64,000 nucleotides of DNA. Source: Pseudanabaena cinerea FACHB-1277. Its GTDB lineage: Bacteria; Cyanobacteriota; Cyanobacteriia; Pseudanabaenales; Pseudanabaenaceae. The stretch covers positions 1-64,000 of the forward strand of contig NZ_JACJPY010000002.1 in NCBI RefSeq assembly GCF_014696345.1, given 5' to 3'. Shown here piece after piece: positions 10,709-38,608 of the stretch. Below the pieces are notes generated by a model. The model worked only from the letters and a program-made list of their open reading frames with translations, did no database searches and was not told the DNA's origin. The number at the start of each line of letters is the position of its first letter. Position 1 is the first letter of the stretch. The translations under genes and the position numbers were made by a program.

Positions 10709-10820
10709 CCCGTAATTTATGACTTTCATGTTACGCAGAACGTAGATGATGAATCTCTTGCTGCTAGCCAATCAAGGCACCCCCCCATACTGTTTACTGA
10801 ACTGTCAAGAGGCTTCATTT

Positions 10821-19273: not shown

Positions 19274-19864
19274 TTATAGGCGATCGCCTAGCGTTACACG
19301 CTTACCATCGCGAACTAATCTTGCCATGTTTACATAGAACTTTCCGCCAACGGTTGGAGGCACAGTACGAGTAATTGCACCCTTAGCATTTCCTGCCATT
19401 ACGTTCTCAAAATCTTTCAAGACCTTATTGGCATCGTCATTACTTTCCAAAGTGAAAATCAAACGAGAATTAATACAACGCTTCTCGCTTGAGGACATAT
19501 CAGCCGCAGCACAGATTACGGGTTGGCCATTCAGCCATGAGTTGGTAATATAACTTAATCGAGTAGTACCCAAGTTTTGCATTCTCTCGGATACAATTTT
19601 GCATCTAGACTCTGGAGAATATTCTCCAAAGTAGGTGGATTTCCATTGAATAACAGGAACACCGACCCTGCCTTCATCTCCATTGCGAATAGCAAAAGTA
19701 GTAGGTAGACCTGTCTTAGGGTTACGGTAGCAAGCAAATGAATGTGAGCCACTCTCGTTTTCCTTGATTTTGCTTTGGGCAGAGGCAGTACTGAAAGCAC
19801 TACCAAAGAAAGAAATCAACGCAAAGGAGAAGATAGTCAGTTTCAGTAATTTTACTTTTGGCAT
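19274..19864 (-). CDS. Secreted COP23-domain protein
   Basis: A 196-residue protein using the ATG at 19864 (MPKVKLLKLTIFSFALISFF), which gives a clear signal peptide cleaved near ASAQ; a start 28 codons upstream would bury it. The mature part has four spaced cysteines and the COP23 pattern: FACYRNPKTGLPTTFAI, PVIQWKS, ESRCKIVSERMQNL, LNGQPVICAA and the tail DDANKVLKDFENVM. COP23 was named after a circadian oscillating polypeptide of a unicellular cyanobacterium; the biochemical function is unknown. A second COP23 gene is at 26523. It sits downstream of the trypsin-like gene on the same strand, with ATGAACTTT repeats between them. Confidence 0.85.
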   Translation of the reverse strand: MPKVKLLKLTIFSFALISFFGSAFSTASAQSKIKENESGSHSFACYRNPKTGLPTTFAIRNGDEGRVGVPVIQWKSTYFGEYSPESRCKIVSERMQNLGTTRLSYITNSWLNGQPVICAAADMSSSEKRCINSRLIFTLESNDDANKVLKDFENVMAGNAKGAITRTVPPTVGGKFYVNMARLVRDGKRVTLGDRL

Positions 19865-20017
19865 TTTATTAATTCTCAAATTTTTACCTATCTGTTTGCG
19901 GTTAGATAAGTCATTGATTAAAATCTTTGACATATAAATTATACCCATATTTTAGCTAGAGTAAACACATAAAAGTTACAAGTAAGTTATATTGTTTGGT
20001 GCTAGAAATAGCTATCT

Positions 20018-22440: not shown

Positions 22441-24141
22441 CTAAAACTGATACTTCATGTTGAAGTATAGGGATGAATCTTGGAGATTGTTGGTTTTGTC
22501 TGATAGTCGCAAGAAAGGAATAGCATAATCTAAGCGCATGGTTAGTCCCTTAAGAGGCTCTAGGATTGCAACTAATCCGCCCCCTGCAATAAAGTTTTGC
22601 TGTGGTAACTGATTGGGGTTGCGAGGATGATTCCAAATAGCGCCAAGATCGACAAATGGACCAAATTGCAGTTTTGACGATTCATCGATCTCGTCACGGA
22701 GCAGTACCCAACGATTTTCTAGGGATAGCCTGAAACCATTATCGCCAACCCTAACATTTTGGCGAAATCCTCTTACAGACTGTGCGCCGCCAATAGCAAA
22801 CTGCTGCGATGACAGTAACGGATCGGAGGCTAATTGGGTATCCAAAGATGCTAGTAAAAACACATTTCGTCCTAACCCTTGCAGTCTCTGAATTTGACCG
22901 CTCCAACTCAGGAAATGGCTCGTGGGAGCATTAGGGTTATTAACTTTGTTACTGCTGACATTGAATATTCCTAGCCCTGTACCCAAATTGAACTGAGAGC
23001 GAAAAGACCAAGCGCTATTGTTAGGCTCTCTGAGGGTATATTCCTGTCCAAACTTGATTACCCCTGTACGGGTTGAACCATCGGATTCGGGCCCAATCCC
23101 AAAAGGAGTCTGCAAGTCGTTGAATAAAAATGTTTGACCCGTTTGATAGGCATAACCCAGAGATAATGCAAATTCATCAACCCGCGATCGCGCAATGGGC
23201 TGTCTAAAGTTTACTTCATACAAAGTTCCTGCACCACGAATACCAAGGGCAGCAAAGTCAGATTGCGTTATCCGAAAATTGTTGGGAGCGACCCGAAATG
23301 ATAAGCGCCCATCCTGATGGTTGACAGGGATCGAATAGCTAATATCGTATTGGTTAAGTCCATTGCTGGTAGAACGATAATAGGAAAAGGCTAGTTGATC
23401 GCCAAAATTCGTTAAATTACTTACAGACAGTCCTGCCCCAATTCGCTCAGAACCAACGGATACTGGCGACTCGTTGTCAAAACTCACAAATCCTTGAAAT
23501 TGATTACGCTCTTTAACATCCAGCACTAGTTCAGGCTTTCTACTAGAATCTTTGCTAGTTGAGATCGTTCCTCTAAATTCCTTAAAATTAGGATCGCGAT
23601 TCATAATTACTAGCCCTTCTTCTAGTCTACTTGCATTGAAAGGGCTAGTGATATATTGCTGAATACGTGGCAATACGTAATCTCGACTTACATTTTGCAG
23701 TCCTTCGATAGTAGTATCTGCACCCAGTTTTTCGAGTTCGCCCTCATTAATTTTGATTTCAGGAGGATCGACAGTATCATCTAGAGTTGCAAAGGAGTTT
23801 ATATAGCCGTTATTTACATACGTTTCGGTAACTGCGTCAGTAAGTTTCTGAAGCTCGGCTTGACAGGTTTTGGGGCTGGGGGTTCTGAAAAAATCTTTTT
23901 CGAGTTTCCGCAGTTTCTCTTGGAGGACGCTTGAGGTTGTCCTGAGTGGAAATTGCGGTCTATTCAAGGGTCGATTACCCTTGCATGGGTCGTCATCTTT
24001 ATGATTTAGTTGCTTTGGCTCTGCCTGCTTAGGTGATAAAGTCTCGCCATAAGTACTCTCTAACGTTATCCCCATGGCGATCGCACCCATCGCGCCAAAA
24101 GTCACACACCGAACTGCCCAATAGTTTCCAGAAAAAGCCAT
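22441..24141 (-). CDS. TpsB outer-membrane transporter (ShlB/FhaC/HecB family)
   Basis: A 566-residue protein with a signal region (about 1-30), a Pro/Lys-rich linker, a POTRA-type domain (about 90-180, with VTETYVNNGYINSFATL and a second short repeat), and a 16-strand barrel over residues 200-566. The barrel carries the family marks GLSVSNLTNFGDQLAFSYYR, VRGFRQNVRVGDNGFRL and LQFGPFVDLGAIW. TpsB proteins recognise the TPS domain of a partner exoprotein and export it through the outer membrane. The obvious partner is the CHAT-TpsA gene 4 kb to the left (10821-18467), although TpsA and TpsB are usually adjacent. It is divergent from the Lon-type protease gene. Confidence 0.92.
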   Translation of the reverse strand: MAFSGNYWAVRCVTFGAMGAIAMGITLESTYGETLSPKQAEPKQLNHKDDDPCKGNRPLNRPQFPLRTTSSVLQEKLRKLEKDFFRTPSPKTCQAELQKLTDAVTETYVNNGYINSFATLDDTVDPPEIKINEGELEKLGADTTIEGLQNVSRDYVLPRIQQYITSPFNASRLEEGLVIMNRDPNFKEFRGTISTSKDSSRKPELVLDVKERNQFQGFVSFDNESPVSVGSERIGAGLSVSNLTNFGDQLAFSYYRSTSNGLNQYDISYSIPVNHQDGRLSFRVAPNNFRITQSDFAALGIRGAGTLYEVNFRQPIARSRVDEFALSLGYAYQTGQTFLFNDLQTPFGIGPESDGSTRTGVIKFGQEYTLREPNNSAWSFRSQFNLGTGLGIFNVSSNKVNNPNAPTSHFLSWSGQIQRLQGLGRNVFLLASLDTQLASDPLLSSQQFAIGGAQSVRGFRQNVRVGDNGFRLSLENRWVLLRDEIDESSKLQFGPFVDLGAIWNHPRNPNQLPQQNFIAGGGLVAILEPLKGLTMRLDYAIPFLRLSDKTNNLQDSSLYFNMKYQF

Positions 24142-24407: not shown

Positions 24408-26486
24408 GTGAGAAGGAAAGGTAAGACTGGTGGTGGTTCAAACAAGCCAAGGGGGAATAGTGGCAAAAAACCTGGTATGTTTAATCGACCTAAAAGTGGG
24501 GCAAGTCCCAAATCCAGTTCCCCTTTCCGCAACCCAACCAATAAGGGCAATCCGATCGCACTAGTCTTAGGCATATTTTTCGCTGTCGCAGCGATCACGG
24601 GAACAATTATTGCAACTAACCCCAACTTAATTTCTCAAATTGCTGGTGGATCTATCTCTTGTAGTGAAAGAAGCGTTACAGTCAATGCCTTATCTACAAA
24701 AGAGGCAATACCAGTTAAATTATCAGTTAGCCCTAACTTGAACAGTGCCGAGATTATGCCTGTTAAGTTTACTAGTAAAGGAAACAATGAGGTTGGCAAG
24801 CAATTAAAAACTTCTGCAAACTTAGCCGCCGTAATGACAAGTTTCTTATTGGGAGAGGATCTAAGTAACTGCCAATTTACAGTCGAAACACAGACAGACA
24901 AAGATGTTGACGGTCCCAGCGCAGGAGCATTATTCACAGTTAGTTTTTTATCCCTAGTTAGAGGTGATAACCAAGCGATTAATCCTAAAGTAACAATGAC
25001 TGGCACAGTGAATCCTGATGGAACTGTAGGACCCGTGGGAGGTATTCCGGGAAAGCTGAAAGCTGCTGACAATCTCAGGGACAAAAAAAGTTTAGGTAAT
25101 ATCACAGTAATCATTCCAAGGCAAAGCGATGACAAAATCACACAAGCTGATACAGAGCTTACTAATCTGAGTGTTGAAATTGCTAAAGATATATATGGTG
25201 CATACAAACTTTTAACTGGCAAAGAAATTCCTCGATACTTATCTAAGGATATCTCCCTTGAAAATCTCAAGCTATCAGAAGATATAAGCACTGTTATTGG
25301 TTCCAAGATTAAAGAGATTGAAGGATCGTATAAGACAGTAGCTGCGATACCTGATCTTATTGCATTAAAGGAATCTACCAAGAAAGAGCTAAGTGTGATT
25401 GGTCAAGTCAAGGATGCTTACTACAAACAATTTGAAACTTATAAGAAAGGCGGCAATGAAGAAGTTAGTAGTGCATTTAACCGTTTAAACCAAGCAAACT
25501 TTGCAGCGTCTATTCACAAAAATATTGCTGAGTTTGCAAGCATAGCCGAAAGTAATGATAGGCAAAAGCTTAAAAATACCGCAGAGAAGAATTTTGGGGA
25601 AATTCGGCAGCTAGTTCAAGAACAAATCAGAAACCTAGAGAAATCAACAAAAGAAAATTTACCATTTACTTCCTTTGTTGATAGTTATTCGCATTCAGCG
25701 CGTGCGAAGTCTTTAGTAGAATTCTCAGATAAATCACCTAGTGAGATAAGTGAAGATAATTATCTAATATGGGCTTTAGGCAATTTATTTGTGCCAGAGA
25801 TGGCTAGAAAATACCTTAACCAGTCTAAAGTTTCACTTGATATTGGTAAAGCCGTGAAAGCTCGTGGTAATACTAGTAACTTAAACAAAAAAAAGCTCAT
25901 CGCTTTGGCGAAGATTTTAGACAGGGCAGCCCGATCTAATATTGAATATCTAAAATCATTAGTGGGAGAGCCTAACAATTTAAGTTACTACCTAGCTTTT
26001 TCGCTTAAAAACTTGTCTGATGATTTAATTAAGAAATTAGAAAAGATCGGTAGTGATGATGCCAACTTAGCAGATGTTTATGACCTAACAGGATCGGCAT
26101 TATCCTCTTATTTAGAGTCTTCAATGCTCATATATAAGTACTACTCGCTACAGGCTGGCACACTAAAAGCAACCGACATTTTTGGAAATTTGAATTTTAG
26201 TAATATGAATCCTAAACTAAGTTTTGAGCAGCAGCAAGCGGCTATTCGCGAAATTAAAGAAACAGTGAAAACAGTTTCCCAAGAATCTGAGGATGATACT
26301 AAGAAGTTTATAGCTGTTTTAAAGGACAAAAATCTAGGCTATGAAGTACCAGCATTTAACTATTGGCAATCGCAACCGATGGCTCGTAGTGAGGATGTTA
26401 ATGAGCAGCTAGATAGCATATCTGGCTTTTGGGCAGCCAATTTTGAAGCTAGGATTGCACTTATGGCTGCTGGTATTAAGCCTTAG
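24408..26486 (+). CDS. Membrane-anchored Lon-type (S16) protease domain protein
   Basis: A 692-residue protein starting at a GTG with AGGAG 10 nt upstream. Residues 1-40 are very basic and Gly/Ser/Pro-rich, about 46-68 form one transmembrane helix, and 80-270 are a Lon proteolytic domain with the Ser/Lys dyad S171 (DGPSAG) and K216 (GGIPGKLKAA). There is no AAA+ ATPase domain. Residues 290-692 are a helical extension without recognised family. With the N-terminus inside, the protease faces the periplasm. ATP-independent Lon-like domains process membrane or secreted proteins elsewhere (for example bacterial YlbL-type); the substrate here is unknown. It leads a likely operon with the COP23 and PhnD-like genes. 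Confidence 0.85.
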   Translation: MRRKGKTGGGSNKPRGNSGKKPGMFNRPKSGASPKSSSPFRNPTNKGNPIALVLGIFFAVAAITGTIIATNPNLISQIAGGSISCSERSVTVNALSTKEAIPVKLSVSPNLNSAEIMPVKFTSKGNNEVGKQLKTSANLAAVMTSFLLGEDLSNCQFTVETQTDKDVDGPSAGALFTVSFLSLVRGDNQAINPKVTMTGTVNPDGTVGPVGGIPGKLKAADNLRDKKSLGNITVIIPRQSDDKITQADTELTNLSVEIAKDIYGAYKLLTGKEIPRYLSKDISLENLKLSEDISTVIGSKIKEIEGSYKTVAAIPDLIALKESTKKELSVIGQVKDAYYKQFETYKKGGNEEVSSAFNRLNQANFAASIHKNIAEFASIAESNDRQKLKNTAEKNFGEIRQLVQEQIRNLEKSTKENLPFTSFVDSYSHSARAKSLVEFSDKSPSEISEDNYLIWALGNLFVPEMARKYLNQSKVSLDIGKAVKARGNTSNLNKKKLIALAKILDRAARSNIEYLKSLVGEPNNLSYYLAFSLKNLSDDLIKKLEKIGSDDANLADVYDLTGSALSSYLESSMLIYKYYSLQAGTLKATDIFGNLNFSNMNPKLSFEQQQAAIREIKETVKTVSQESEDDTKKFIAVLKDKNLGYEVPAFNYWQSQPMARSEDVNEQLDSISGFWAANFEARIALMAAGIKP

Positions 26487-26522: not shown

Positions 26523-27056
26523 ATGGCACAGTTAGATATAGTGAGTTTGGGAATTAGCATCCTGCTTGAGGCATTTAGTGCATTCGTGGCTAGTGCGAAT
26601 ATTAATACATCGGGCGTTGCTAAATTTGTATGCGATCGCAGCCTTGATAGTATTCCCACAACCTATGTAGTGATCAAATCAGAGCGCCGCCCATTTATTC
26701 GGTGGGTGGCAGACTTTGGCGGTGTGGACTATACCCCCATGCGCCGTTGTAAAGAAGTAACTTCGCGAATGCAATCACTGCGATCGCAAGGTAAATTACG
26801 TTACATCACCAGTGGTGAAATCAATGGCGAAAGGGTAATCTGCACTGCATCTTCGCCACAAAATGCTAAGAGTAAAATATGTACTGCTCTCTTGATTACT
26901 CTCAAACCAACAGATTCTGCTAATGAGGTGTTAAATCAACTTTTTGATATTAAACAAGACAAGCCGATAATTAAGCTTGATGGTACTAACGATGAGAAGC
27001 TTGATGTCAGGAACAGTGGGTATATAGATGTCGATAAGTTTTTTGATTCTTTCTAA
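26523..27056 (+). CDS. COP23-domain protein
   Basis: A 177-residue protein, 36 bp after the Lon-type gene. The hydrophobic N-terminus (LGISILLEAFSAFVASAN) may be a weak signal peptide. The domain repeats the COP23 order: FVCDRSLDSIPTTYVV, PFIRWV, RRCKEVTSRMQSL, LRYITSGEINGERVICTA and SANEVLNQLF, with four cysteines aligning to those in the gene at 19274. Compared with that protein it has an additional acidic tail of about 30 residues. Two copies at one locus, one in each transcription direction, suggest COP23 is a working part of the locus rather than a bystander. Function unknown. Confidence 0.82.
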   Translation: MAQLDIVSLGISILLEAFSAFVASANINTSGVAKFVCDRSLDSIPTTYVVIKSERRPFIRWVADFGGVDYTPMRRCKEVTSRMQSLRSQGKLRYITSGEINGERVICTASSPQNAKSKICTALLITLKPTDSANEVLNQLFDIKQDKPIIKLDGTNDEKLDVRNSGYIDVDKFFDSF

Positions 27057-28568: not shown

Positions 28569-30017
28569 TTAGTGAATTTCAGCAACGAAACATAGCTTTG
28601 ACATTAGTTTATCGTCTTTAGGGCGATCGCTATTTGCTGTCACCACAAGTTGATGCAAGCCATTTAATAATTGAAAGACGTTAAAAGTTCTTGCTCCATC
28701 ATTTTTGTTACTTTCATCACTACTCCATTCTTTAAACCAAGGAATAAGCGGCAACTTATCAAGAGTAGACTTTATAATAAATTTGTAAGTACCATCTACG
28801 CCACTCTCTATATTAAAATTGACTTCAACTTCAGTCTGTTGACTGCTAAACCTGACTTCTTTTGCTTTTACAAATTGCTTAGCAGCATCATTTTTGACTA
28901 AATCCTTTACAGAAGCATCAAACTTACTTGCTTCCACAGTATGCTCAAGCTCTCTTGCAAAAGCAGCGACTGTATGAGGTAAAGCTGCTTGTTGATTTAT
29001 TTTGTAACTATAGCTATAGGATTTGTTGGGCAAAAGTCTTAGTATCTGCACCTTACTAGATTCTGGTTCACCAAGTTCTGTAAAAGCACCCTTGTAATTG
29101 ATCCCAGTGACAACGCCATCGGTTTGGGTTGGGGGTGATTTCTGTAGGTCTAACGCAATGGCAGAATCAATAGCCTTGTTGTCAAAGATTACAAATTTAC
29201 TGCCTTCAGCAATATCTGGTTCAGATTCAACTAAGCGTTCATAAAGATAATTGATATTGGCATATCTACCCAACATCAAAATATAAAAGGGACGATAGGA
29301 TTTATCCCCATTTTTTTTGCGCTCTGGCAAATTAGTATTCCACTCAAAAAACTCATTATTATTGCCCACGTCATACACCGTGCCATTAAATTGACTACGC
29401 TGAGCGAGTACGCCCACAGAAAATCCCGCATTAAGATATTTTTGTTTGAATGATTCAAGAATATCTCGGATATTTTGATTGTTTTCCGTCATATCAGAGA
29501 CAATCAGAACTAAGCTGTCGTTTGAAGGCTTATCTGTTTTGACAACATTATTGATCTGACTATTGGCAAACCAAGGATAGTTTGTGTTCACCTCTTCTGG
29601 CGTTTTAGGATAAAATATCGGCTTCTGGGCGTTCAAAAAATCAGTAGGTGTTAGTAGGTCTCGTCTATCATCGCCAAATCGATAAAACTGAATCTGTGCA
29701 TCTTTCCATTTGCCAGTTATCGCCGTATTCAGACTACGTAACGCGCGGATATAACGGCTCCCCTCGATCGCCACAAACCCATTCATAGAAGGAGTGCCAT
29801 CTACATACACCTTAGCTTGAATTTTCTTGGAATGTTCTTTAAATTGAGCATTCTGAGAAAGCGCAGGTACATTACAGTCGATCGCCAAAGCTTTCGGCTT
29901 AAGCAAAAATGCAGCAGCGAACATGGCGGCGATCGCCATCAAAATGATAACAATAATCACAAATCCATTATTACGTCCTCGGCTGGGACTTTTTCCACGT
30001 CCATTTGGAGCTTTCAT
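28569..30017 (-). CDS. Membrane-anchored VWA-like protein
   Basis: A 482-residue protein; ATG at 30017 (MKAPNGRGKSPS) is chosen over a TTG six codons upstream. A basic tail precedes a membrane helix at about residues 17-40. The extracytoplasmic part starts with a von Willebrand A-type fold: QAKVYVDGTPSMNGFV (Asp73, a D-x-T-x-S variant of the MIDAS), the helix SRYIRALRSLNTAI, VLIVSDMTENNQNI as the second metal-site strand, and YILMLGRYANINYLYERL. About 200 residues of unassigned C-terminal sequence follow. VWA proteins use a bound divalent metal to hold partner proteins. It is divergent from the tubulin/actin-like operon. Confidence 0.78.
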   Translation of the reverse strand: MKAPNGRGKSPSRGRNNGFVIIVIILMAIAAMFAAAFLLKPKALAIDCNVPALSQNAQFKEHSKKIQAKVYVDGTPSMNGFVAIEGSRYIRALRSLNTAITGKWKDAQIQFYRFGDDRRDLLTPTDFLNAQKPIFYPKTPEEVNTNYPWFANSQINNVVKTDKPSNDSLVLIVSDMTENNQNIRDILESFKQKYLNAGFSVGVLAQRSQFNGTVYDVGNNNEFFEWNTNLPERKKNGDKSYRPFYILMLGRYANINYLYERLVESEPDIAEGSKFVIFDNKAIDSAIALDLQKSPPTQTDGVVTGINYKGAFTELGEPESSKVQILRLLPNKSYSYSYKINQQAALPHTVAAFARELEHTVEASKFDASVKDLVKNDAAKQFVKAKEVRFSSQQTEVEVNFNIESGVDGTYKFIIKSTLDKLPLIPWFKEWSSDESNKNDGARTFNVFQLLNGLHQLVVTANSDRPKDDKLMSKLCFVAEIH

Positions 30018-30035
30018 ATCGTGATTACTAGACAA

Positions 30036-30367
30036 GATCGATGGTAATCATATACTATTTATTCAGGCTAAGCATATTTTTCGTTAGCTAAACTTAATTC
30101 TTTGAATCAAGCCTTTGATTAATTGATCAAAATAATCTTAGGATTAGAATATGATCATGCAAGTCCAATTTGATGATACATTTATCTAAGCAGCATTGTA
30201 ACGATCAAAATCATTGATTTGTCCAATATTACTTAATGACTCAATGATATGAATTCAGTTCACTAAGTTCATACTCAACCGTTAAGTATATTGAACAGTC
30301 AAGACAAGGCGTTTAGTTAATGCTTAGTTAACAACTAACCATAAAAAAATACCAAAAAGATAAGCCT
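30036..30367. promoter_or_regulatory. Divergent promoter region of the VWA and tubulin/actin-like operons
   Basis: No gene is seen in these 332 bp, which are AT-rich. The segment 30248-30272 has ATGAATTC followed by AGTTCA twice, and the complement of 30262-30272 reads ATGAACTTAGT, identical to part of the palindrome at 24247. Confidence 0.5.
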
Positions 30368-30844
30368 GTGCTAAAGATTATTGGAAGCCTCGTAATATCT
30401 CTCATTTTTTGGGCAGCATTCTTACTGTTGTTTCAAAATGGTGTTATCCCTATTGAAAAGGGAGGCGCGAGTAATGTCGCAGGTGCATGGCTTGCTAGCA
30501 CTTTCATTCCCAGTTCTTTAATTGTTATGGGTGTAACCCTATTCGCGGCTGGTATATGGTTCTTCCTATCGTCAAGATCTCAAGATGATGAAAGGTGCTA
30601 TGAGCAAGTAAAATATTGGTGGGGACTGCTAATGCTGCCTCTAGCAACCATTGGTGTAGTTACTTTTGCCTATCGGGAATCCTTAAAGGATGCGGTAGTA
30701 TACATATTAATCAGTCATGTGCTTCATGTGATTTGGATCTATTGGATTGGCACTTGCTTGAGTTCTCAAAACTTTGCTAAGTACATACTTCCTGGTTCCC
30801 GCAAGATCCGTAGCATCGCCTCTTCTATCGGCATTCCTGTTTAA
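30368..30844 (+). CDS. Small four-helix membrane protein
   Basis: A 158-residue protein beginning at GTG. Four hydrophobic segments are visible: about residues 4-24, 42-66, 82-102 and 108-128. The loop after helix 2 (SSRSQDDERCYEQVKYWW) and the C-terminal tail (LPGSRKIRSIASSIGIPV) are charged and probably cytosolic. No family is recognised. It is the first gene of the operon with the tubulin-like and actin-like proteins (25 bp to the next start), so a membrane anchor or assembly platform for them is a reasonable inference. Confidence 0.7.
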   Translation: MLKIIGSLVISLIFWAAFLLLFQNGVIPIEKGGASNVAGAWLASTFIPSSLIVMGVTLFAAGIWFFLSSRSQDDERCYEQVKYWWGLLMLPLATIGVVTFAYRESLKDAVVYILISHVLHVIWIYWIGTCLSSQNFAKYILPGSRKIRSIASSIGIPV

Positions 30845-30869
30845 AAAATTACTTCTTTGAGCTTCAGCT

Positions 30870-32480
30870 ATGACCTTATATTTGATTGCAATTGGTGGAT
30901 CAGGGGCGCGTTGTGTAGAGTCAGTTATACACTTGGCTTCTACTGGGTTAATGAGCGATGACAAAATCAAGGTGTTGTTTGTAGATCCTGACAAGTCAAA
31001 CGGCAACTACATTCGCACCTGCAATCAACTTAATGCTTACAATAAATGTAGAAAGTCAGTATGGCAAGCTGGCGACCCTTGTCAGTGGATGCGTACAGAA
31101 ATTGTCAATCTGGGTATATCCACTGTAGGGGCAGGCGGCAATAGTTTAAAAGGTTTTTTTAACTACAACGCCATGCATGATAGTAATTCAGTGCTGACAG
31201 ACCTTTTTGATGTACTTTATACTGATGAAGAGCAGAATATAGACTTATCGGAAGGGTTTCGGGGGAGACCAGCCATTGGTTCTGCTTTTATGAGTCAATT
31301 AGATTTTGAAAAGCTTAAAGCTGATCGTTATCAGGGTAACTATCCAGACTATATTAGACCTTGGGCATCATTCTTAGAAGAAGTTGATAATGCGATCGAA
31401 AGCACAACCGTCAAAATTCTGCTGTGTGGTTCAGTATTTGGTGGCACTGGAGCATCTGGATTACCAGTAATAGCGAGATTGCTAAATGATTTCTTTGTCG
31501 GTAGAAATAGCATAGGTGCGAAGGGAACTCCTAGGGAAAACTTAACCTTAGGCAGTATTTTAGTTCTTCCTTACTTTAACTTTAAAGTTAGTGGAGCAGA
31601 TGTTCCCAGTGATGAGGTATATGCACGCGCACCAGAATTTGCCTTGAATACGCAAGCAGCAATGCGTTACTACAAAAGCCAAATGCAAGATATATGTGAC
31701 GTGTTCTACTGTATCGGTGATCAAAATCGGGCAGAATTTGATTTTAGTGTTGGCGGGGAACAGCAGGAAAATAGGGCACACATTGTTGAGCTATATGCAG
31801 GACTTGCGGTTAGGGACTTTATCTATAGCGATAAACCAACTGACACTGAAAAGATTGTTTTTGCGGAGCGCCGCTTTGAAGATCGTATAGGCTGGCTAGA
31901 CTTACCGTCAGAGCCAGATAGCATTGAATATGCACCGATTAATGATTACTTTAATTACCCAGATGAGCCAGTAGTTAGACACGCACTGCGAAATGCAGTT
32001 AGATTTGCTTTTGTGTGGTACAACAGTATTGTTGGTCAACTCGAAGAATATTGCCTTGGCAATCAACCTAAGGGCTGGATGAACGCTGCAAGCATTTGGC
32101 TAAATCCGTTTTTTAATGTTGATGGTAAATCTAATTACTTGCCTGAGATCAATAATCCTGCAACAGAAACAAGTGAAGCAGCCCCAATTAGTCAGTGGTG
32201 TAATAACTTTGCACTGTGGTTAGATGACTTACATAAATCTGACGATAATGAGTTCATTAGTCTGTTTGCTATGGATAAAGTGACATCACCAGACGAAATT
32301 AATTTTGGTCGTTTGGTGGGGGATGATTCCCGTTCGGAAGCAGAGAAAGATGCTGATCGCATTGATCTAATAAAGTTGCGGTTAGACCCAGACTCGGATG
32401 ATGGTATTGACCTAAGCTTGATTGATGCTAGAGGTTATGTTGGCTTAGCCAAATTTGCATACGTTGTTTGTGGATTGTAG
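30870..32480 (+). CDS. Tubulin/FtsZ-superfamily GTPase
   Basis: A 536-residue protein of the tubulin-like family. The N-terminal strand-loop LIAIGGSGARCVES (Gly9-Gly10) and the nucleotide-binding signature GGTGASG at residues 191-197 (in SVFGGTGASGLPVIARLL) are both present, spaced further apart than in FtsZ because of an insertion at about 60-165. KVLFVDPDKSNGN follows the first Rossmann helix and LGSILVLPYFNF follows the signature. The C-terminal 200 residues are unassigned. Makarova and Koonin described divergent FtsZ-like families linked with VWA proteins and proposed membrane remodelling; this gene fits that idea, but membership is an inference. Confidence 0.8.
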   Translation: MTLYLIAIGGSGARCVESVIHLASTGLMSDDKIKVLFVDPDKSNGNYIRTCNQLNAYNKCRKSVWQAGDPCQWMRTEIVNLGISTVGAGGNSLKGFFNYNAMHDSNSVLTDLFDVLYTDEEQNIDLSEGFRGRPAIGSAFMSQLDFEKLKADRYQGNYPDYIRPWASFLEEVDNAIESTTVKILLCGSVFGGTGASGLPVIARLLNDFFVGRNSIGAKGTPRENLTLGSILVLPYFNFKVSGADVPSDEVYARAPEFALNTQAAMRYYKSQMQDICDVFYCIGDQNRAEFDFSVGGEQQENRAHIVELYAGLAVRDFIYSDKPTDTEKIVFAERRFEDRIGWLDLPSEPDSIEYAPINDYFNYPDEPVVRHALRNAVRFAFVWYNSIVGQLEEYCLGNQPKGWMNAASIWLNPFFNVDGKSNYLPEINNPATETSEAAPISQWCNNFALWLDDLHKSDDNEFISLFAMDKVTSPDEINFGRLVGDDSRSEAEKDADRIDLIKLRLDPDSDDGIDLSLIDARGYVGLAKFAYVVCGL

Positions 32481-32555
32481 AAACTGCTAGAAATCACATA
32501 ATCGGCTAATCACACACAAGAAAAGTTTTTGTTTTTTTAAAGAGAGGAAATTACA

Positions 32556-35500
32556 ATGGCGCAGGCAACAGATAAGTCCATCTTCATGCTACCTAAGCTT
32601 AGAGACAGTAAGGTAAAACATGGGGCAGCAGGTAAATGGAATCGTCAGTCGGCAACAGCTTTTGATGATGTTGCCCGCAGTATTGATGTGATTGTCAATA
32701 CCGAGGTTGCCAATGTAAACTCAATTCCTAGTATGTGGGCGCATCCTTTGGCGCTGCAATCAGTTTTATCCAGTAATGATTACAACGATCGCATCCGAAT
32801 ACCACTGATCAACCAATGGCGGGGAATGCTAACAGCGATCGCCCTTGCCCCAGATTTTCAAGAAGTGGGAAGACTCACAGCAAAATTTATCGATCTAACA
32901 GATCCTGCATATAGAAATAATAAGTTTATCCAGTCACTTTTCCGATTAGCCCCAAGCACCAACGAATGCTTGTTCGCTCTGGAGCATAATCTTAATCCTT
33001 GGCTGCAAAGTTATGTATTTTGCTGGAATGGTCGTGCGATCGGCATGACCTCGCCTAGCACAATTGTTTGCCCCGCCGAAGACGCTAACTGGACTGGTTT
33101 ACCTTGGTTTGTCAATGGTCAGGTGCAATCTCCTGAACGCTATCTAAATAACGATCAAAAAATAAGGTTATCTAGATGGTTAGTATATCTGCGTAGGCAA
33201 ATATCCGCAGACAGCTTGGGCATTCACAACCAAATTTCTACATTGATTAATGAGTTTATCGATGCGCTTGGTGGCGACAAAAACCAAGCCCTAAACCCTG
33301 CTACAGAACTGCTAAATGATGATACATATTTCGGAATTTTAATTGAAATAGCTTTTTATGCCTCTATTCTCCGCCCCTCTGACTTACTCGGCGGTGTTAA
33401 GTTCTTCTTGTCTGGCAATGATCTATATTTTCTGCGTCGTCCCAACGCTTTTCCCAATGCAAATATTCCAGATAGCCTTAAAAATCTAACTTTCGCTGGT
33501 TCACCAATTTCCGTGATCTTACCGATTGAGCCAAAATTTTTCAATCGTGATGATGCTGCTAACTTACTCCAAACTCTAAAAGTCGAAAGCCTCAAGGCAA
33601 ACACAGTTCTCAAGTTTAGTATTCAGATTGATGGACATAATCTTGAAAAACAATATGAGCTTAAAAATGAGAATGTGATCTCTGGCTTGCCAGTTGCTGA
33701 AATCTGGCCAAACTTTACCAGTCCAAATTGGAAAATTTATTATTCCTACTACTACGATGTAGATGAGACTCAACTGAATTTTGAATTTTCTAACATCACG
33801 AACCCTCAAGTAAATATACATAGATTCAGTACTTCGCAAGTATCTCGACTTGATAGTTTCCCTAAACATATAGCTTGCTATTATCATGATCGTGTTATTG
33901 GGGCTATCGCATTGAAAACACCTGTGGCTGTACTTGAAACTAATAAGCAATGGAATGTAGGTGTTGACTTTGGTACATCATTTACTAATGTTTACAAGAA
34001 ACAGGGTGAATATGATGAGAAAATGTCTTTCGATGACTTGCATTTTTCTATTACACTGAGTGATCCTGACACTAGGACTTCTTCACTAACAGAGAACTTT
34101 ATTCCACTAAGCCAAAAGCTTCCCATAGCTAGTCTTTTGTCAGTAAAAAATGGGCGAATTCCAGTTACTCGCCACGGGAATGTTGACGCAGAGATTATTT
34201 TCGATGGACGTATTTATGTCCCCAGTGCAATAAACAAGCTTGATGATGGCAAGGATTGTTTGATCAGTAACCTCAAATGGAATAACCTCGATAATCAAGA
34301 GCCGATGCGTTTATTCATAGAGCAATTAGCTTTACAGGTTTCTGCTCAAGCAGTAAAGAGTGGAGTAAGTCAGATCCAGTGGGCACTTTCTTATCCGACA
34401 GCATTCTCTCGTAGGGACAAGAGTAGCTATGTGGATATCTGGAATGACTGTTCCGAGAAGCTTTTTGCTATAACAGGATTAAGATATGAAGATCTAAGAG
34501 CAAATAGTAATGCTCACTTTCGTTCAGAGAGTTTAGCAGTTGCTCACTACTTCTCCTCCAAAAAGGGTAAGTCTTTGCTAAATGCAGCCTGTATCGATAT
34601 TGGTGGGGGAACTTCTGATATCTCAATCTGGGAGGAGCATAAAAATGGTATTGTCCCTGTTTATCAATGTTCTGTGCAACTGGCTGGGAAACACTTGTTT
34701 AGTGATATTATGAGGCGTGATCCAGAGTTTCTGAGGCACATTAATTTTGCTACGGATGATACTCTAATTAACTTAAGAAATTCTAAGTCACTATTTGCAA
34801 CTGCGATGGACGCTTTAGCTAAAGAGTGTGGTGATGAATGGCTTCGATCTCGTCGTAGGAGACTACAGGGAAACGAGCGCTTGTACAAATATTTGCAGAT
34901 ACTTGCGATTGGCATTGCAGGACTTCATTATTATGCTGGATTAGTTCTACAAGTTCTTCACAAAGAAGACGCGGACAGTCCTAGACGATATAAAGCTGGT
35001 AAGCCTGTTAATGTATATTTCGGCGGTAATGGATGCCGACTCTTGAATTGGCTATCTGATACGGGTAAGTTTGAGAATGATGAAATTGGCGAACTATTCC
35101 AAGAGATGACGATCAAGGCTTCAGAATTTCAACCCCTATCTAAATCCAATGCTATCAGCGATCAGCCCAAAGAAGAAGCTGCTTGCGGATTAGTAGTAGG
35201 GCAAAAAAGATTGGGTGATCCATCTGGATCTGAACAGGATTTGATAGCGGGTGAACCATGTAAAATAGGCTCTAGGGTATTTACTTGGAATTCATATATA
35301 GCTTTTGATGCTGATATCTCTGAATCGATTGATACATTACAAGTTGTCACAGATCCAAATGATTTGGTAAATCTTCCTAAGTTTATATATTGGTTTCAAA
35401 AGGGTTTGAGAAGGAGGCGTGATATTCAAATTCCAGTCATCAAAGGATATAGCTTGGGAAATGCCCAAAACGATGATGATAACCTAAGAAACACTGTCGC

Positions 35501-35660
35501 AGATAACTATATCTTTTGGGATCGAGTGGTTGATAAATTAAGAGATTCTCTGATCCTAGACAATGGTGCAACTACGGAAAATATTCGTCTTGAACCTCCA
35601 TTCATTCTTGCACTGAAGGCTTTGATAGAAGTACTTGCAGAGGAATGGGTAAGCAGATGA
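32556..35660 (+). CDS. Large actin/Hsp70-fold ATPase with novel N-terminal region
   Basis: A 1034-residue protein with GAGAGG before the ATG. Residues about 465-1034 hold all three actin/Hsp70 nucleotide motifs: phosphate-1 VGVDFGTSFTN (D471), phosphate-2 IDIGGGTSDISIW (D681) and the adenosine motif YFGGNGCRLL (G823-G824). The roughly 460 residues before it match nothing I recognise; they include LRDSKVKHGAAGKWNRQSAT at the start and a helical region with LLGGVKFFLSGNDLYFLRRP. There is no membrane segment. It overlaps the next gene by 4 bp (ATGA). Pairing of a tubulin-fold and an actin-fold NTPase in one operon is rare. Confidence 0.82.
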   Translation: MAQATDKSIFMLPKLRDSKVKHGAAGKWNRQSATAFDDVARSIDVIVNTEVANVNSIPSMWAHPLALQSVLSSNDYNDRIRIPLINQWRGMLTAIALAPDFQEVGRLTAKFIDLTDPAYRNNKFIQSLFRLAPSTNECLFALEHNLNPWLQSYVFCWNGRAIGMTSPSTIVCPAEDANWTGLPWFVNGQVQSPERYLNNDQKIRLSRWLVYLRRQISADSLGIHNQISTLINEFIDALGGDKNQALNPATELLNDDTYFGILIEIAFYASILRPSDLLGGVKFFLSGNDLYFLRRPNAFPNANIPDSLKNLTFAGSPISVILPIEPKFFNRDDAANLLQTLKVESLKANTVLKFSIQIDGHNLEKQYELKNENVISGLPVAEIWPNFTSPNWKIYYSYYYDVDETQLNFEFSNITNPQVNIHRFSTSQVSRLDSFPKHIACYYHDRVIGAIALKTPVAVLETNKQWNVGVDFGTSFTNVYKKQGEYDEKMSFDDLHFSITLSDPDTRTSSLTENFIPLSQKLPIASLLSVKNGRIPVTRHGNVDAEIIFDGRIYVPSAINKLDDGKDCLISNLKWNNLDNQEPMRLFIEQLALQVSAQAVKSGVSQIQWALSYPTAFSRRDKSSYVDIWNDCSEKLFAITGLRYEDLRANSNAHFRSESLAVAHYFSSKKGKSLLNAACIDIGGGTSDISIWEEHKNGIVPVYQCSVQLAGKHLFSDIMRRDPEFLRHINFATDDTLINLRNSKSLFATAMDALAKECGDEWLRSRRRRLQGNERLYKYLQILAIGIAGLHYYAGLVLQVLHKEDADSPRRYKAGKPVNVYFGGNGCRLLNWLSDTGKFENDEIGELFQEMTIKASEFQPLSKSNAISDQPKEEAACGLVVGQKRLGDPSGSEQDLIAGEPCKIGSRVFTWNSYIAFDADISESIDTLQVVTDPNDLVNLPKFIYWFQKGLRRRRDIQIPVIKGYSLGNAQNDDDNLRNTVADNYIFWDRVVDKLRDSLILDNGATTENIRLEPPFILALKALIEVLAEEWVSR

Positions 35661-37189
35661 TGAAATATAAACACTACTTTACTAGACATGTAATTTTATT
35701 TACTCAACTGATTCTGTTGAGTGGTTGTGGTCTATTGGGAAATAATCCTGAAAATGTTGCTCCGAAAACTAGCAATAGTGCTGACAATAATGGCAATGTG
35801 TCGACAGATATTTCGCAACAATGTTTAGATGGTTTAATAAAAGGAATTAGTGATTATGAAAAGAAAATCGGTAAGTTGCAATCAGGTGGAAGCATTTCTG
35901 AATCATCAATTGCAAGACAATCCGAAAACTTATCAAAAGATTTAAAAGCAATCGCAAATTTGACAATCTGTTCAAATGTAAATAGTAATTCATTAAAGGA
36001 AATTATCAATGACATTAAGGGACTTGATAACCTTGTATCGCTAATGTCTGATACTGTAAAGAATAAGAAAGAAATAGAATCTGCCTTAGGGGACAAAGTA
36101 AAATTAGAGCCATCCGAGATCAGTAAAAGTGATCAAGAAACGTTAGAGACAAAATTTATTAAGCATACAAATGAAAAAATATCAGAGATACTTGGAACTC
36201 TTAACAATTTAGTTAAAGCACCAGTTAGGTTGACTGATAACCAAGTTAAAAGATTAGAAGAACAGGTTAAGGTATTGCAAATCACGGTAAGAAGTTTGAG
36301 AGAAGAATTAGGTAAAAACGCAAATAATGATAGCGAAACATCTCAAAATTTAAATAATTTTAAGTCATTTGCTAATACCATGATATTAGGTTTAACAGCT
36401 ACTGTTGCTTTGTTTGGGTATATATTATTTAAAAAATATAACTCATCTTCTGACTTATCTGTTAACAAACCAGCAACTAAGCATAAGCAACAGGAAAAAA
36501 ATACTAGTTTAGAACCTAATGATGTACCTAGCCTTTCTAAAAAAAGGTTGGGTGGTGAACACAATACATCAACACATAATAAAAAAACTAATGATCAATA
36601 TCTAGGCAAATCAAAAAGCTACCTAGGTAACATTGAGCGCGAGTTGAAAAATGATAGAGATAATTCTAAACCATCAACTACTGACCATCACAACATAGAT
36701 TTGTCAGGTAATTATGAATCAGATTCTGATGATTCATCCAATCAAACCAAAGCAGTTTCCCCTAAATACTTGCCAGCGTATCCTGTCGAGAAAATGCAAA
36801 CTAAACAGCCATTAACTTATGACTTAGCAATTGAGTATTATCAAGATGGTAGATATGAACTACTTCGACCCTATACCGAAGGTTACTACTCAGCCACATC
36901 AGAAAGTATTATGAGTAATCGTGCTTATTGGGGAAATCCTCTGGAACTCGAAAAATTTCCTGACGGGCTATTCTGGATTGTTAAAACTATAGAGCCTTAC
37001 CTTGTATTGTTTCCTAATCCTACTAAAAAAATTGAGGATAACCGTATTCGGAGCATTGAATACTTCTTTGAGTCTAATTTTAGTAATGTAAATTATAGGA
37101 ATTTAATTGTTATTGCACCCGCTTATATGATTATTGTGAGTGGGAGGCTAGTGATGCAACAAAAAGGGCAAATCGAATTCACTTACTAG
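35657..37189 (+). CDS. Lipoprotein with membrane helix and conserved-looking C-terminal domain
   Basis: A 510-residue protein; ATG at 35657 overlaps the preceding stop as ATGA. A lipobox LLSGC puts the lipidated cysteine at residue 24. A coiled-coil region (about 120-230) leads to a membrane helix at about 237-258 (ANTMILGLTATVALFGYIL), then a 150-residue Asn/Lys/Ser-rich linker and a compact C-terminal domain (about 385-510: LTYDLAIEYYQDGRYELL, SNRAYWGNPLELEKFPDGLF). Lipid anchor plus one helix would leave the final domain in the cytosol next to the actin/tubulin-like proteins, if both signals work. The gene is AT-rich without any HIP1 site. No family name is assigned. Confidence 0.75.
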   Translation: MMKYKHYFTRHVILFTQLILLSGCGLLGNNPENVAPKTSNSADNNGNVSTDISQQCLDGLIKGISDYEKKIGKLQSGGSISESSIARQSENLSKDLKAIANLTICSNVNSNSLKEIINDIKGLDNLVSLMSDTVKNKKEIESALGDKVKLEPSEISKSDQETLETKFIKHTNEKISEILGTLNNLVKAPVRLTDNQVKRLEEQVKVLQITVRSLREELGKNANNDSETSQNLNNFKSFANTMILGLTATVALFGYILFKKYNSSSDLSVNKPATKHKQQEKNTSLEPNDVPSLSKKRLGGEHNTSTHNKKTNDQYLGKSKSYLGNIERELKNDRDNSKPSTTDHHNIDLSGNYESDSDDSSNQTKAVSPKYLPAYPVEKMQTKQPLTYDLAIEYYQDGRYELLRPYTEGYYSATSESIMSNRAYWGNPLELEKFPDGLFWIVKTIEPYLVLFPNPTKKIEDNRIRSIEYFFESNFSNVNYRNLIVIAPAYMIIVSGRLVMQQKGQIEFTY

Positions 37190-37352
37190 AATTGGGGCTT
37201 CTGTGTGGAAATTTCTGCTCATATCCTCTAACTGCAATACATAAAACAATACAAATGTTAATATTCATCAATTTTGCCCCAACTGACGGGGATGCAGTGT
37301 TAGCATTCAACATAGTTAAAAATTGATTGCACAAAAGCTTTAGGAGCGCATT

Positions 37353-38573
37353 TTGACATTACGAGTTGCTGTTGTAGGTGGCGGACCTGCGGGTTCCTGT
37401 GCGGCTGAGACCCTAGCTAAGGCGGGGATTGAAACCTATATATTTGAGCGCAAGTTGGACAACGCCAAGCCCTGCGGTGGAGCAATTCCGCTATGTATGG
37501 TTTCTGAGTTTGACCTGCCTCCAGAGATTATCGATCGCCGCGTTCGCAACATGAAGATGATTTCACCGAGCAATGTTGAGGTGGATATCAAGCTAGACAA
37601 TCCTGATGAATATATCGGGATGTGTCGCCGTGAAATTTTGGATGCTTTTTTACGCAATCGGGCGGCAGATCTAGGCGCAAAGCTAATCAATGCCAGGGTG
37701 CTGGATATTAAGATCACTGAGAATGGGAAGCAGCCCTATGTAATCACCTATTCTGACTTTAGCGAAGGCAGTAACGAAGGCAAAATTCGTACCCTTGAGG
37801 TGGATCTGATTGTTGGGGCTGATGGTGCTAACTCAGTGGTGGCAAAGGCGATCGATGCGGGTGACTATAACTATGCGATCGCCTTCCAAGAGCGCATCCG
37901 CATTTCGCCTGACAAGATGGAATATTACAAAGACCTTGCGGAAATGTATGTGGGTGATGATGTATCCCCAGACTTTTACGCATGGGTATTTCCTAAGTAC
38001 GATCATGTGGCGGTGGGTACTGGCACGATGCACAAGAACCAGCGCATGATCAAGCAGTTGCAAGCGGGGATTCGCGCCCGTGCTTTGCCTCGCATTGAAG
38101 GTGGCGAAGTCATCAAGGTTGAAGCCCATCCAATTCCTGAGCATCCCCGTCCTCGCCGTGTGGTAGGACGTGCGGCTCTCGTTGGCGATGCGGCTGGCTA
38201 TGTTACTAAGTCGAGCGGTGAAGGCATTTATTTTGCAGCAAAGTCTGGACGGATGTGCGCTGAGGCGATCGTGGAGTTTGCAGAAGCTGGTAAAAGGATT
38301 CCCACTGAGGCGGATCTCAAGGTTTACATTAAGCGTTGGGATAAGCAGTATGGCTTGACCTACAAGGTATTAGACATTCTCCAGAATGTGTTTTATGCCA
38401 CTAATGCTACCCGTGAGGCATTTGTGGAAATGTGTGCCGATCGCGATGTGCAGAAGCTCACCTTTGACAGTTATCTCTATAAAACCGTTGTACCTGCTAA
38501 TCCTTTAACCCAGTTAAAGATTACCTTTAAGACGCTCGGTAGCTTGCTGAGAGGCAATGCTTTAGCACCTTAG
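37353..38573 (+). CDS. chlP: Geranylgeranyl diphosphate/geranylgeranyl-chlorophyll reductase
   Basis: A 406-residue FAD-dependent enzyme that reduces three double bonds of the geranylgeranyl chain to phytyl for chlorophyll a and tocopherol. It starts at TTG with AGGAG 6 nt upstream (no in-frame ATG fits). The dinucleotide-binding motif VAVVGGGPAGSCAAETLAKAG is at residues 4-24, the second FAD segment is VGRAALVGDAAGYVTKSSGEG, and PCGGAIPLCMVSEF is typical of ChlP. NADPH is the electron donor in the family. It is a core photosynthesis gene and marks the end of the accessory locus. Confidence 0.96.
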   Translation: MTLRVAVVGGGPAGSCAAETLAKAGIETYIFERKLDNAKPCGGAIPLCMVSEFDLPPEIIDRRVRNMKMISPSNVEVDIKLDNPDEYIGMCRREILDAFLRNRAADLGAKLINARVLDIKITENGKQPYVITYSDFSEGSNEGKIRTLEVDLIVGADGANSVVAKAIDAGDYNYAIAFQERIRISPDKMEYYKDLAEMYVGDDVSPDFYAWVFPKYDHVAVGTGTMHKNQRMIKQLQAGIRARALPRIEGGEVIKVEAHPIPEHPRPRRVVGRAALVGDAAGYVTKSSGEGIYFAAKSGRMCAEAIVEFAEAGKRIPTEADLKVYIKRWDKQYGLTYKVLDILQNVFYATNATREAFVEMCADRDVQKLTFDSYLYKTVVPANPLTQLKITFKTLGSLLRGNALAP

Positions 38574-38608
38574 CTAATTCTCATGAATATGGAAAATCGC
38601 TCCTAGCG

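Follow-up and report, generated by a model that had tools for sequence, protein, structure and literature searches.

The first 64,000 nucleotides of contig NZ_JACJPY010000002.1 of Pseudanabaena cinerea FACHB-1277 (assembly GCF_014696345.1), here called the window, contain a membrane-linked operon encoding a tubulin-fold GTPase-like and an actin/Hsp70-fold ATPase-like protein. The locus had been picked out from the sequence alone in an earlier reading, referred to as the original prediction. On balance, the gene set appears to form the core of a conserved envelope-anchored nucleoside triphosphatase (NTPase) machine with both cytoskeletal folds, coupled in many lineages to the proton motive force (PMF). 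The cytoskeleton rests on two great inventions, the tubulin fold and the actin fold. Apart from FtsZ-FtsA, few conserved bacterial operons are known to encode both next to each other. Related genes were found in the same order in several phyla, with protein identities across phyla of 20-40%.

The tubulin-like and actin-like proteins and their membrane partners

The tubulin-like protein carries the motifs GGSG and FGGTGASG, which were near-invariant across 67 relatives. No membrane helix was detected by hydropathy, and PF00091 matched at 1.1e-4, under the family cut-off. The AlphaFold2 model calculated from the alignment of 67 relatives reached a predicted local distance difference test (pLDDT) value of 84.6 and a predicted template modelling score (pTM) of 0.90. 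Its best structural match was OdinTubulin (7evb) with Z 15.1, a root-mean-square deviation (rmsd) of 4.0 and 244 aligned residues. Further matches were CetZ (Z 14.8), FtsZ (Z 14.2), gamma-tubulin and bacterial tubulin, all at Z 14-15 and within residues 1-377. In the GTP-binding T1/T4 loops, G9, G10, G12, G191, G192 and G194 were present in 67/67 sequences and G193 was near-invariant. The H7 asparagine, N301, was kept in 66/67. D344, located before the next long helix and kept in 63/67, is a T7 candidate by position and conservation. Based on predicted fold and GTP-binding residues, the protein belongs to the FtsZ/tubulin superfamily.

The actin/Hsp70 motifs DFGTS, DIGGGTSD and GGNG were present in the 1034-aa protein and near-invariant in 50 relatives. 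The model from the 50-relative alignment showed pLDDT 83.3 and pTM 0.73. Residues 463-884 were predicted as an actin fold, with MreB at Z 19.5 (285 aligned residues, rmsd 3.6 Å) and other structural matches to MamK, FtsA and DnaK. The structure matches come from this domain, which is preceded by about 460 residues and followed by about 145 C-terminal residues. Foldseek placed Hsp70s on top; by Z, MreB and MamK were best. D471, G473, E658, D681, D688 and G824 were found in 50/50 sequences and K574 was near-invariant. The spacing of E658, D681 and D688 is Hsp70-like, the corresponding sites of Hsc70 being E175, D199 and D206. A profile search against PDB sequences returned actin/MreB for the family with an E-value of about 1e-5. 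Pfam matches of the window protein to FtsA, SrfB and MreB were all sub-threshold, and among 40 family members FtsA matched 19 and MreB 14 at E 0.01. Based on predicted fold and the phosphate-1, phosphate-2 and adenosine motifs, the protein is a member of the actin/Hsp70/sugar-kinase superfamily. Two narrower identities were considered and found no support. For an Hsp70 chaperone, the HSP70 Pfam family matched none of the 40 members at E 0.01. SrfB (PF07520) matched the window protein with E 0.18 over 26 residues and likewise none of the 40 members at E 0.01.

The GGTGASG motif and all three actin/Hsp70 motifs had been read correctly in the original prediction, which had also named structure prediction and a neighbourhood survey as checks. 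Both folds were recovered in the models, and the genes stay together in other genomes and across phyla, so that neither check refuted it.

Three further families accompany the two NTPase-like proteins. The vWA-like family keeps residues of the metal-ion-dependent adhesion site (MIDAS) type, with D73 in 36/38, T/S75 in 38/38, S77 in 37/38 and D175 in 38/38 members. Pfam VWA_2 matched one of the 38 members, at 0.07. In hhalign, the family aligned to classical vWA with P 4e-4 and a probability of 35%, and five control profiles gave P of at least 0.13. The earlier label VWA-like has the MIDAS-type residues in its favour but marginal hidden Markov model (HMM) support and is the weakest of the labels. 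Members are mostly lipoproteins; the window member has one N-terminal helix by hydropathy. The gene is mostly divergent from the operon in cyanobacteria and is its first gene, on the same strand, in other phyla. The small membrane protein upstream of the tubulin-like gene represents the second family, TM4.

The lipoprotein at the operon end contains the lipobox LILLSGC and a marginal helix at 244-262 by hydropathy, in line with the lipoprotein with an additional membrane helix described before. It is poorly conserved overall. Its residues 391-513 form a C-terminal c0 domain (c0ct HMM, E 1.6e-10), and c0 is the fifth conserved family, which elsewhere sits 3' of the actin-like gene. From lipobox and helix, the N-terminal part is predicted to be periplasmic and the C-terminal domain cytosolic. 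Genes for c0 occur in tandem at many cyanobacterial loci. WD40 propellers were found in 5/86 c0 proteins, and one c0 protein had a sub-threshold peptidoglycan-binding match. Two WD40-bearing c0-domain or operon-end proteins lie at L077:17182-18819 and L066:20040-21512.

Conservation, ZorA/ZorB-like genes and relation to FtsZl1

One genome per species was scanned with the family alignment. This yielded 139 loci, of which 80 were kept, and 4 more came from viral contigs. A scan of genome contigs with a single protein had returned no loci, whereas the alignment-based scan did find them. Conservation was counted over 83 loci with a picked tubulin-like open reading frame (ORF), and since the loci were retrieved through the tubulin-like gene, the counts are conditional on it. 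The actin-like gene was located at most four genes downstream of the tubulin-like gene in 78/83 loci, TM4 directly upstream in 71/83 and the vWA-like gene at most three genes upstream in 65/83. Loci were present in Cyanobacteria, Acidobacteria, Poribacteria, KSB1, Nitrospirae, Aminicenantes, Ignavibacteria and Firmicutes. The distribution was patchy: of 292 cyanobacterial genomes sampled, 21 (7%) had the tubulin-like gene, as did one of 26 genomes of the genus. L104, labelled Euryarchaeota, is probably a mis-binned cyanobacterial-type copy because the tree groups it with Synechococcus-type sequences. The same is probable for L085, labelled Chloroflexaceae, because it shows the cyanobacterial arrangement; it was counted among the non-cyanobacterial loci. 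At least four cyanobacterial loci have a second, shorter actin-like gene in the operon; such paralogues are located at L058:17461-19683, L066:16928-19909, L070:18323-20518 and L071:17412-19601.

In Gloeothece PCC 7822 and Picosynechococcus, the operon has plasmid-borne copies (loci L237, NC_014503.1, and L238, NZ_CP016476.1). In their annotation, the tubulin is 'tubulin-like' or hypothetical, the actin-like protein is hypothetical and the remaining products are mostly hypothetical. Distant operons with tubulin-like and actin-like genes adjoin a phage terminase gene (L125) and a tail fibre gene (L126). No match was obtained among 50,697 phage records. Defence families were searched with PADLOC in 125 flanking and 125 control proteins; matches were scattered in both sets, with no clear excess.

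A motor-like gene pair was frequent downstream of the operon. A ZorA-like protein of the MotA/TolQ/ExbB type with a long coiled coil was encoded in 14/19 non-cyanobacterial and 7/60 cyanobacterial loci. A ZorB-like protein with an OmpA domain followed in 11/19 non-cyanobacterial and in 6 cyanobacterial loci. Compared with PADLOC models, these linked proteins of relatives (c1/c2) matched ZorA with E 1.8e-17 and ZorB with E 4.9e-19. The pair retains GLLGT, and the ZorB-like protein also retains the OmpA peptidoglycan-binding residues. The proton-site aspartate at its membrane helix was present in 19/19 sequences. A ZorB-like match anywhere in the genome was obtained for 14 of 20 tubulin-positive cyanobacterial genomes, some of the matches being weak. 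The linkage to a ZorAB-like channel lay outside the view of the original prediction and is a new finding of this analysis. In Poribacteria (L093:18871-19827 and relatives), a protein of about 320 aa is encoded 3' of the ZorB-like gene; it looks transglutaminase-like by eye and had no Pfam match.

The closest described family is FtsZl1 (Tubulin_2, PF13809). Its founding member has 1051 aa with an extended coiled coil and an alpha-helical C-terminal domain, and Makarova and Koonin (2010) proposed a membrane-remodelling role with vWA and OmpA proteins as partners (PMC2875224, accessible text). That text names neither an actin-fold nor a MotA-type partner. The window protein was not matched by PF13809, and 65/67 relatives matched at E ≤0.1 (best 2.2e-11). 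Membership in FtsZl1 was rejected on two grounds. In the tree, 67 family and 17 FtsZl1 rows lie on opposite sides of a 100/100 branch. In architecture, the window protein has 536 aa with a short helical C-terminal part, compared with mostly 1050-1150 aa in cyanobacterial FtsZl1. Because 65 of 67 members still match PF13809 weakly, the two are best read from their sequences as sister families with a common theme. The link to the work of Makarova and Koonin made in the original prediction was apt, but the protein falls in the sister family and not in FtsZl1 itself. As in FtsZl1 operons, a divergent tubulin-fold GTPase with predicted membrane association stands beside a vWA or vWA-like and, in part, an OmpA-domain protein. 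Unlike FtsZl1, the present family is about 500 aa long and is partnered with a large actin-fold protein.

The same genome carries two classic FtsZl1 genes, both matched by PF13809. At L133 (C34:1395-7370), FtsZl1 with 1108 aa is directly followed by ZorA-like and ZorB-like genes. At L134 (contig C1, 6980-14918), a vWA protein (DTSAS), the second FtsZl1 (920 aa) and a 1054-aa protein are encoded in series. The ZorA-like/ZorB-like pair was located directly 3' of FtsZl1 in 14/20 sampled cyanobacterial loci. The actin-like, TM4 and present vWA-like families were found beside none of these 20 FtsZl1 genes. FtsZl1 may thereby gain a mechanistic partner in the pair that follows most of its sampled cyanobacterial genes.

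Proposed mechanism and rival explanations

For the envelope-anchored NTPase machine, the following mechanism is proposed. On the periplasmic side, the vWA-like protein and the lipoprotein would sense or grip the envelope. TM4 and the cytosolic c0 domain would draw the tubulin-like protein, a predicted GTPase, to the inner membrane. There it may assemble with GTP, and the actin/Hsp70-like ATPase may co-assemble with it or remodel its assembly. The assembly would then exert force on the membrane or gate a response there. Where the ZorAB-like pair is present, PMF could drive or trigger the cytosolic assembly. The envelope-associated cytoskeletal or stress machine of the original prediction is supported overall, the cytoskeletal (polymer-forming) nature of the proteins being putative. 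Patchy occurrence, in part on plasmids or with prophage-like flanks, points to a role needed under certain conditions (phage defence or envelope stress) more than to housekeeping.

Several points weigh against the machine. No ZorAB-like ORF is present in the window, and the pair is missing from most cyanobacterial loci. In 6/20 tubulin-positive cyanobacterial genomes, no related ZorB-like match was obtained anywhere in the genome, so that the motor would be a frequent but optional partner. The vWA assignment by HMM is weak. The T7 catalytic loop of the tubulin-like protein has no clear assignment, D344 being a candidate only. The loci were gathered via the tubulin-like gene, and close relatives inflate the counts. 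Assembly, coupling, filament formation and function are proposals placed on the observed architecture, predicted folds and conservation.

In its most far-reaching form, the machine would have two filaments, with tubulin-fold and actin-fold polymers at the inner membrane. In many phyla, a proton-driven rotary motor anchored in the peptidoglycan would be its partner, and PMF would power or trigger it. It would represent a previously undescribed class, borne by plasmids and prophages and perhaps serving in defence. This form is offered tentatively and is rather doubtful in its entirety. No prior description was found in the open-access literature, in which the FtsZl1 paper, Kaur et al. (2020) and papers on motors were the relevant ones; unnamed A and B families in the accessible text of PMC2875224 could include some of the proteins. 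The earlier suggestion of a system possibly undescribed in cyanobacteria agrees with this; the system also occurs outside cyanobacteria.

The strongest of the rivals, a real possibility with less than an even chance, is anti-phage defence of the Zorya kind. Perturbation of the envelope by phage would be sensed at the peptidoglycan and the signal relayed by the proton-driven motor or by vWA-like protein and lipoprotein to the tubulin/actin NTPases as cytosolic effector or amplifier. By analogy, such a route is plausible. As in ZorA/ZorB, the relatives' pair has a long coiled-coil tail, the proton-site aspartate and an OmpA peptidoglycan-binding domain, and it matches both models. Patchy occurrence, plasmid copies and the terminase or tail fibre genes beside distant relatives also fit. 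Differences from Zorya are the absence of the pair from the window, a core made up of vWA-like, TM4, tubulin-fold and actin-fold proteins, and the lack of a recognised Zorya effector. For the effectors ZorC/D, ZorE and ZorF/G, no convincing PADLOC match was obtained in the five window proteins, the relatives' loci not being searched. Neither a nuclease nor another known effector belongs to the conserved set, the operon proteins have no convincing PADLOC model match and defence families are not clearly more frequent in the flanks than in the control set. All this speaks against defence.

Envelope remodelling, transport or surface motility in a housekeeping-like role (vesicles, envelope stress, gliding) is a rather unlikely account. 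It is favoured by the many lipoproteins, membrane helices and vWA-like or OmpA domains of the system, and by the similar ZorAB-like pair in cyanobacterial FtsZl1 operons. Precedents are FtsZl1 (PMC2875224, accessible text) and the PMF-driven vWA force transducers of PMC12204202. The latter are membrane-tethered and lie beside TolQ/MotA-like motors; tubulin is unmentioned there. The present vWA-like proteins also occur beside MotA-like motors but, unlike those transducers, are mostly lipoproteins. Presence in 7% of the sampled cyanobacterial genomes and in 1/26 within the genus, together with plasmid copies, fits a core envelope role poorly. The data do not choose between Zorya-like defence and envelope remodelling.

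A conflict system like those of Kaur et al. (2020; PMC7159879) has a similarly low probability. In such a system, the tubulin-like GTPase would serve in signalling and the actin-like ATPase would be of the chaperone type, both without polymerising. Kaur et al. described prokaryotic operons with tubulin, HSP70-fold and vWA proteins and a proposed role in the response to invaders, and tubulin or HSP70 stands with vWA proteins among their systems. The Hsp70-like spacing of E658, D681 and D688 and the top rank of Hsp70s in Foldseek point in the same direction. However, the HSP70 Pfam family remained unmatched where FtsA and MreB matched many members, and the best Z values belong to MreB and MamK. 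The systems of Kaur et al. are centred on TRAFAC GTPases and keep tubulin and HSP70/GrpE/DnaJ themes separate, whereas the present operon unites both folds, and its recurrent components include no recognised TRAFAC GTPase. Chance neighbours, that is unrelated genes sharing one transcription unit, are highly improbable, since the same set and order in several phyla at the identities given above contradict them despite the poorly conserved lipoprotein and the variable order upstream of the right-flank gene in the genus.

Among established systems, the machine resembles the FtsA-FtsZ divisome in combining actin-fold and tubulin-fold NTPases at the membrane, and actin-like members match FtsA and MreB profiles. 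Unlike FtsA-FtsZ, both present proteins are highly divergent and patchy, and neither is FtsA or FtsZ. A set of about five genes with both folds, often with a MotAB/ZorAB-type motor, would be a tractable system for the cooperation of tubulin-like and actin-like NTPases. It could show whether PMF can drive cytosolic assembly. Genes could readily be deleted or transferred, since copies reside on a 47.5-kb cyanobacterial plasmid and on plasmids of Picosynechococcus.

Layout of the locus and neighbouring genes

The coordinates are listed in the table. The original prediction had described four genes in tight order, and the ORFs lie as described, with spacers of 25 bp and 75 bp between the first three genes. 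The 4-bp overlap of the last two genes holds if the lipoprotein starts at ATG 35657; from the first ATG, 35645, the overlap is 16 bp. The first product had been called a four-helix membrane protein. Hydropathy confirmed the helices but left their number at three to four. The divergent VWA-like gene that the original prediction had placed next to the operon was confirmed there and lies on the opposite strand.

Table. Features of the operon and its borders in the window
Feature	Position	Strand	Basis or remark
Four-helix-type membrane protein (TM4 family), 158 aa, 3-4 predicted helices	30368-30844	+	ORF list, hydropathy
Tubulin-fold GTPase-like protein, 536 aa	30870-32480	+	Motifs, predicted structure, tree
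Actin/Hsp70-fold ATPase-like protein, 1034 aa	32556-35660	+	Motifs, predicted structure
Lipoprotein, 514 aa, internal helix and C-terminal c0 domain	35645-37189	+	Lipobox, hydropathy, c0ct HMM
vWA-like protein, one N-terminal membrane helix, remainder predicted periplasmic	28569-30017 (alternatively to 30035)	-	Divergent from operon
Intergenic stretch between vWA-like gene and operon	30018-30367		Likely promoter region (inferred)
Geranylgeranyl-reductase-like gene (named by eye), right border, outside the system	37235-38577	+	Genus synteny

A promoter consensus scan found 32 sites over the whole region compared with 24.6 expected, which is no evidence of function. Pfam and NCBIfam gave almost no named family for the operon proteins. 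PADLOC gave no convincing match for the five window proteins; the top hit, of the vWA-like protein to Csm6 at 0.003, was taken as chance. Synteny with relatives of the genus resumes about 45 bp past the operon end, at 37235. In the search for an empty site, the gene 5' of the right-flank gene differed even among genus relatives without the system. The sharp border at 37235 is no proof of insertion because the upstream neighbour varies in these system-free relatives too.

Other genes of the window were noted in passing. A 2573-aa protein (10746-18467) is filamentous-haemagglutinin-like with a CHAT-like C-terminal region, and a POTRA/ShlB-like transporter candidate is encoded at 22441-24141, both named by eye. 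Two similar proteins are encoded at 19274-19948 and 26523-27056, and the second matches the circadian oscillating protein COP23 with E 2e-30. At 24408-26486, a Lon-type protease domain forms part of a membrane protein.

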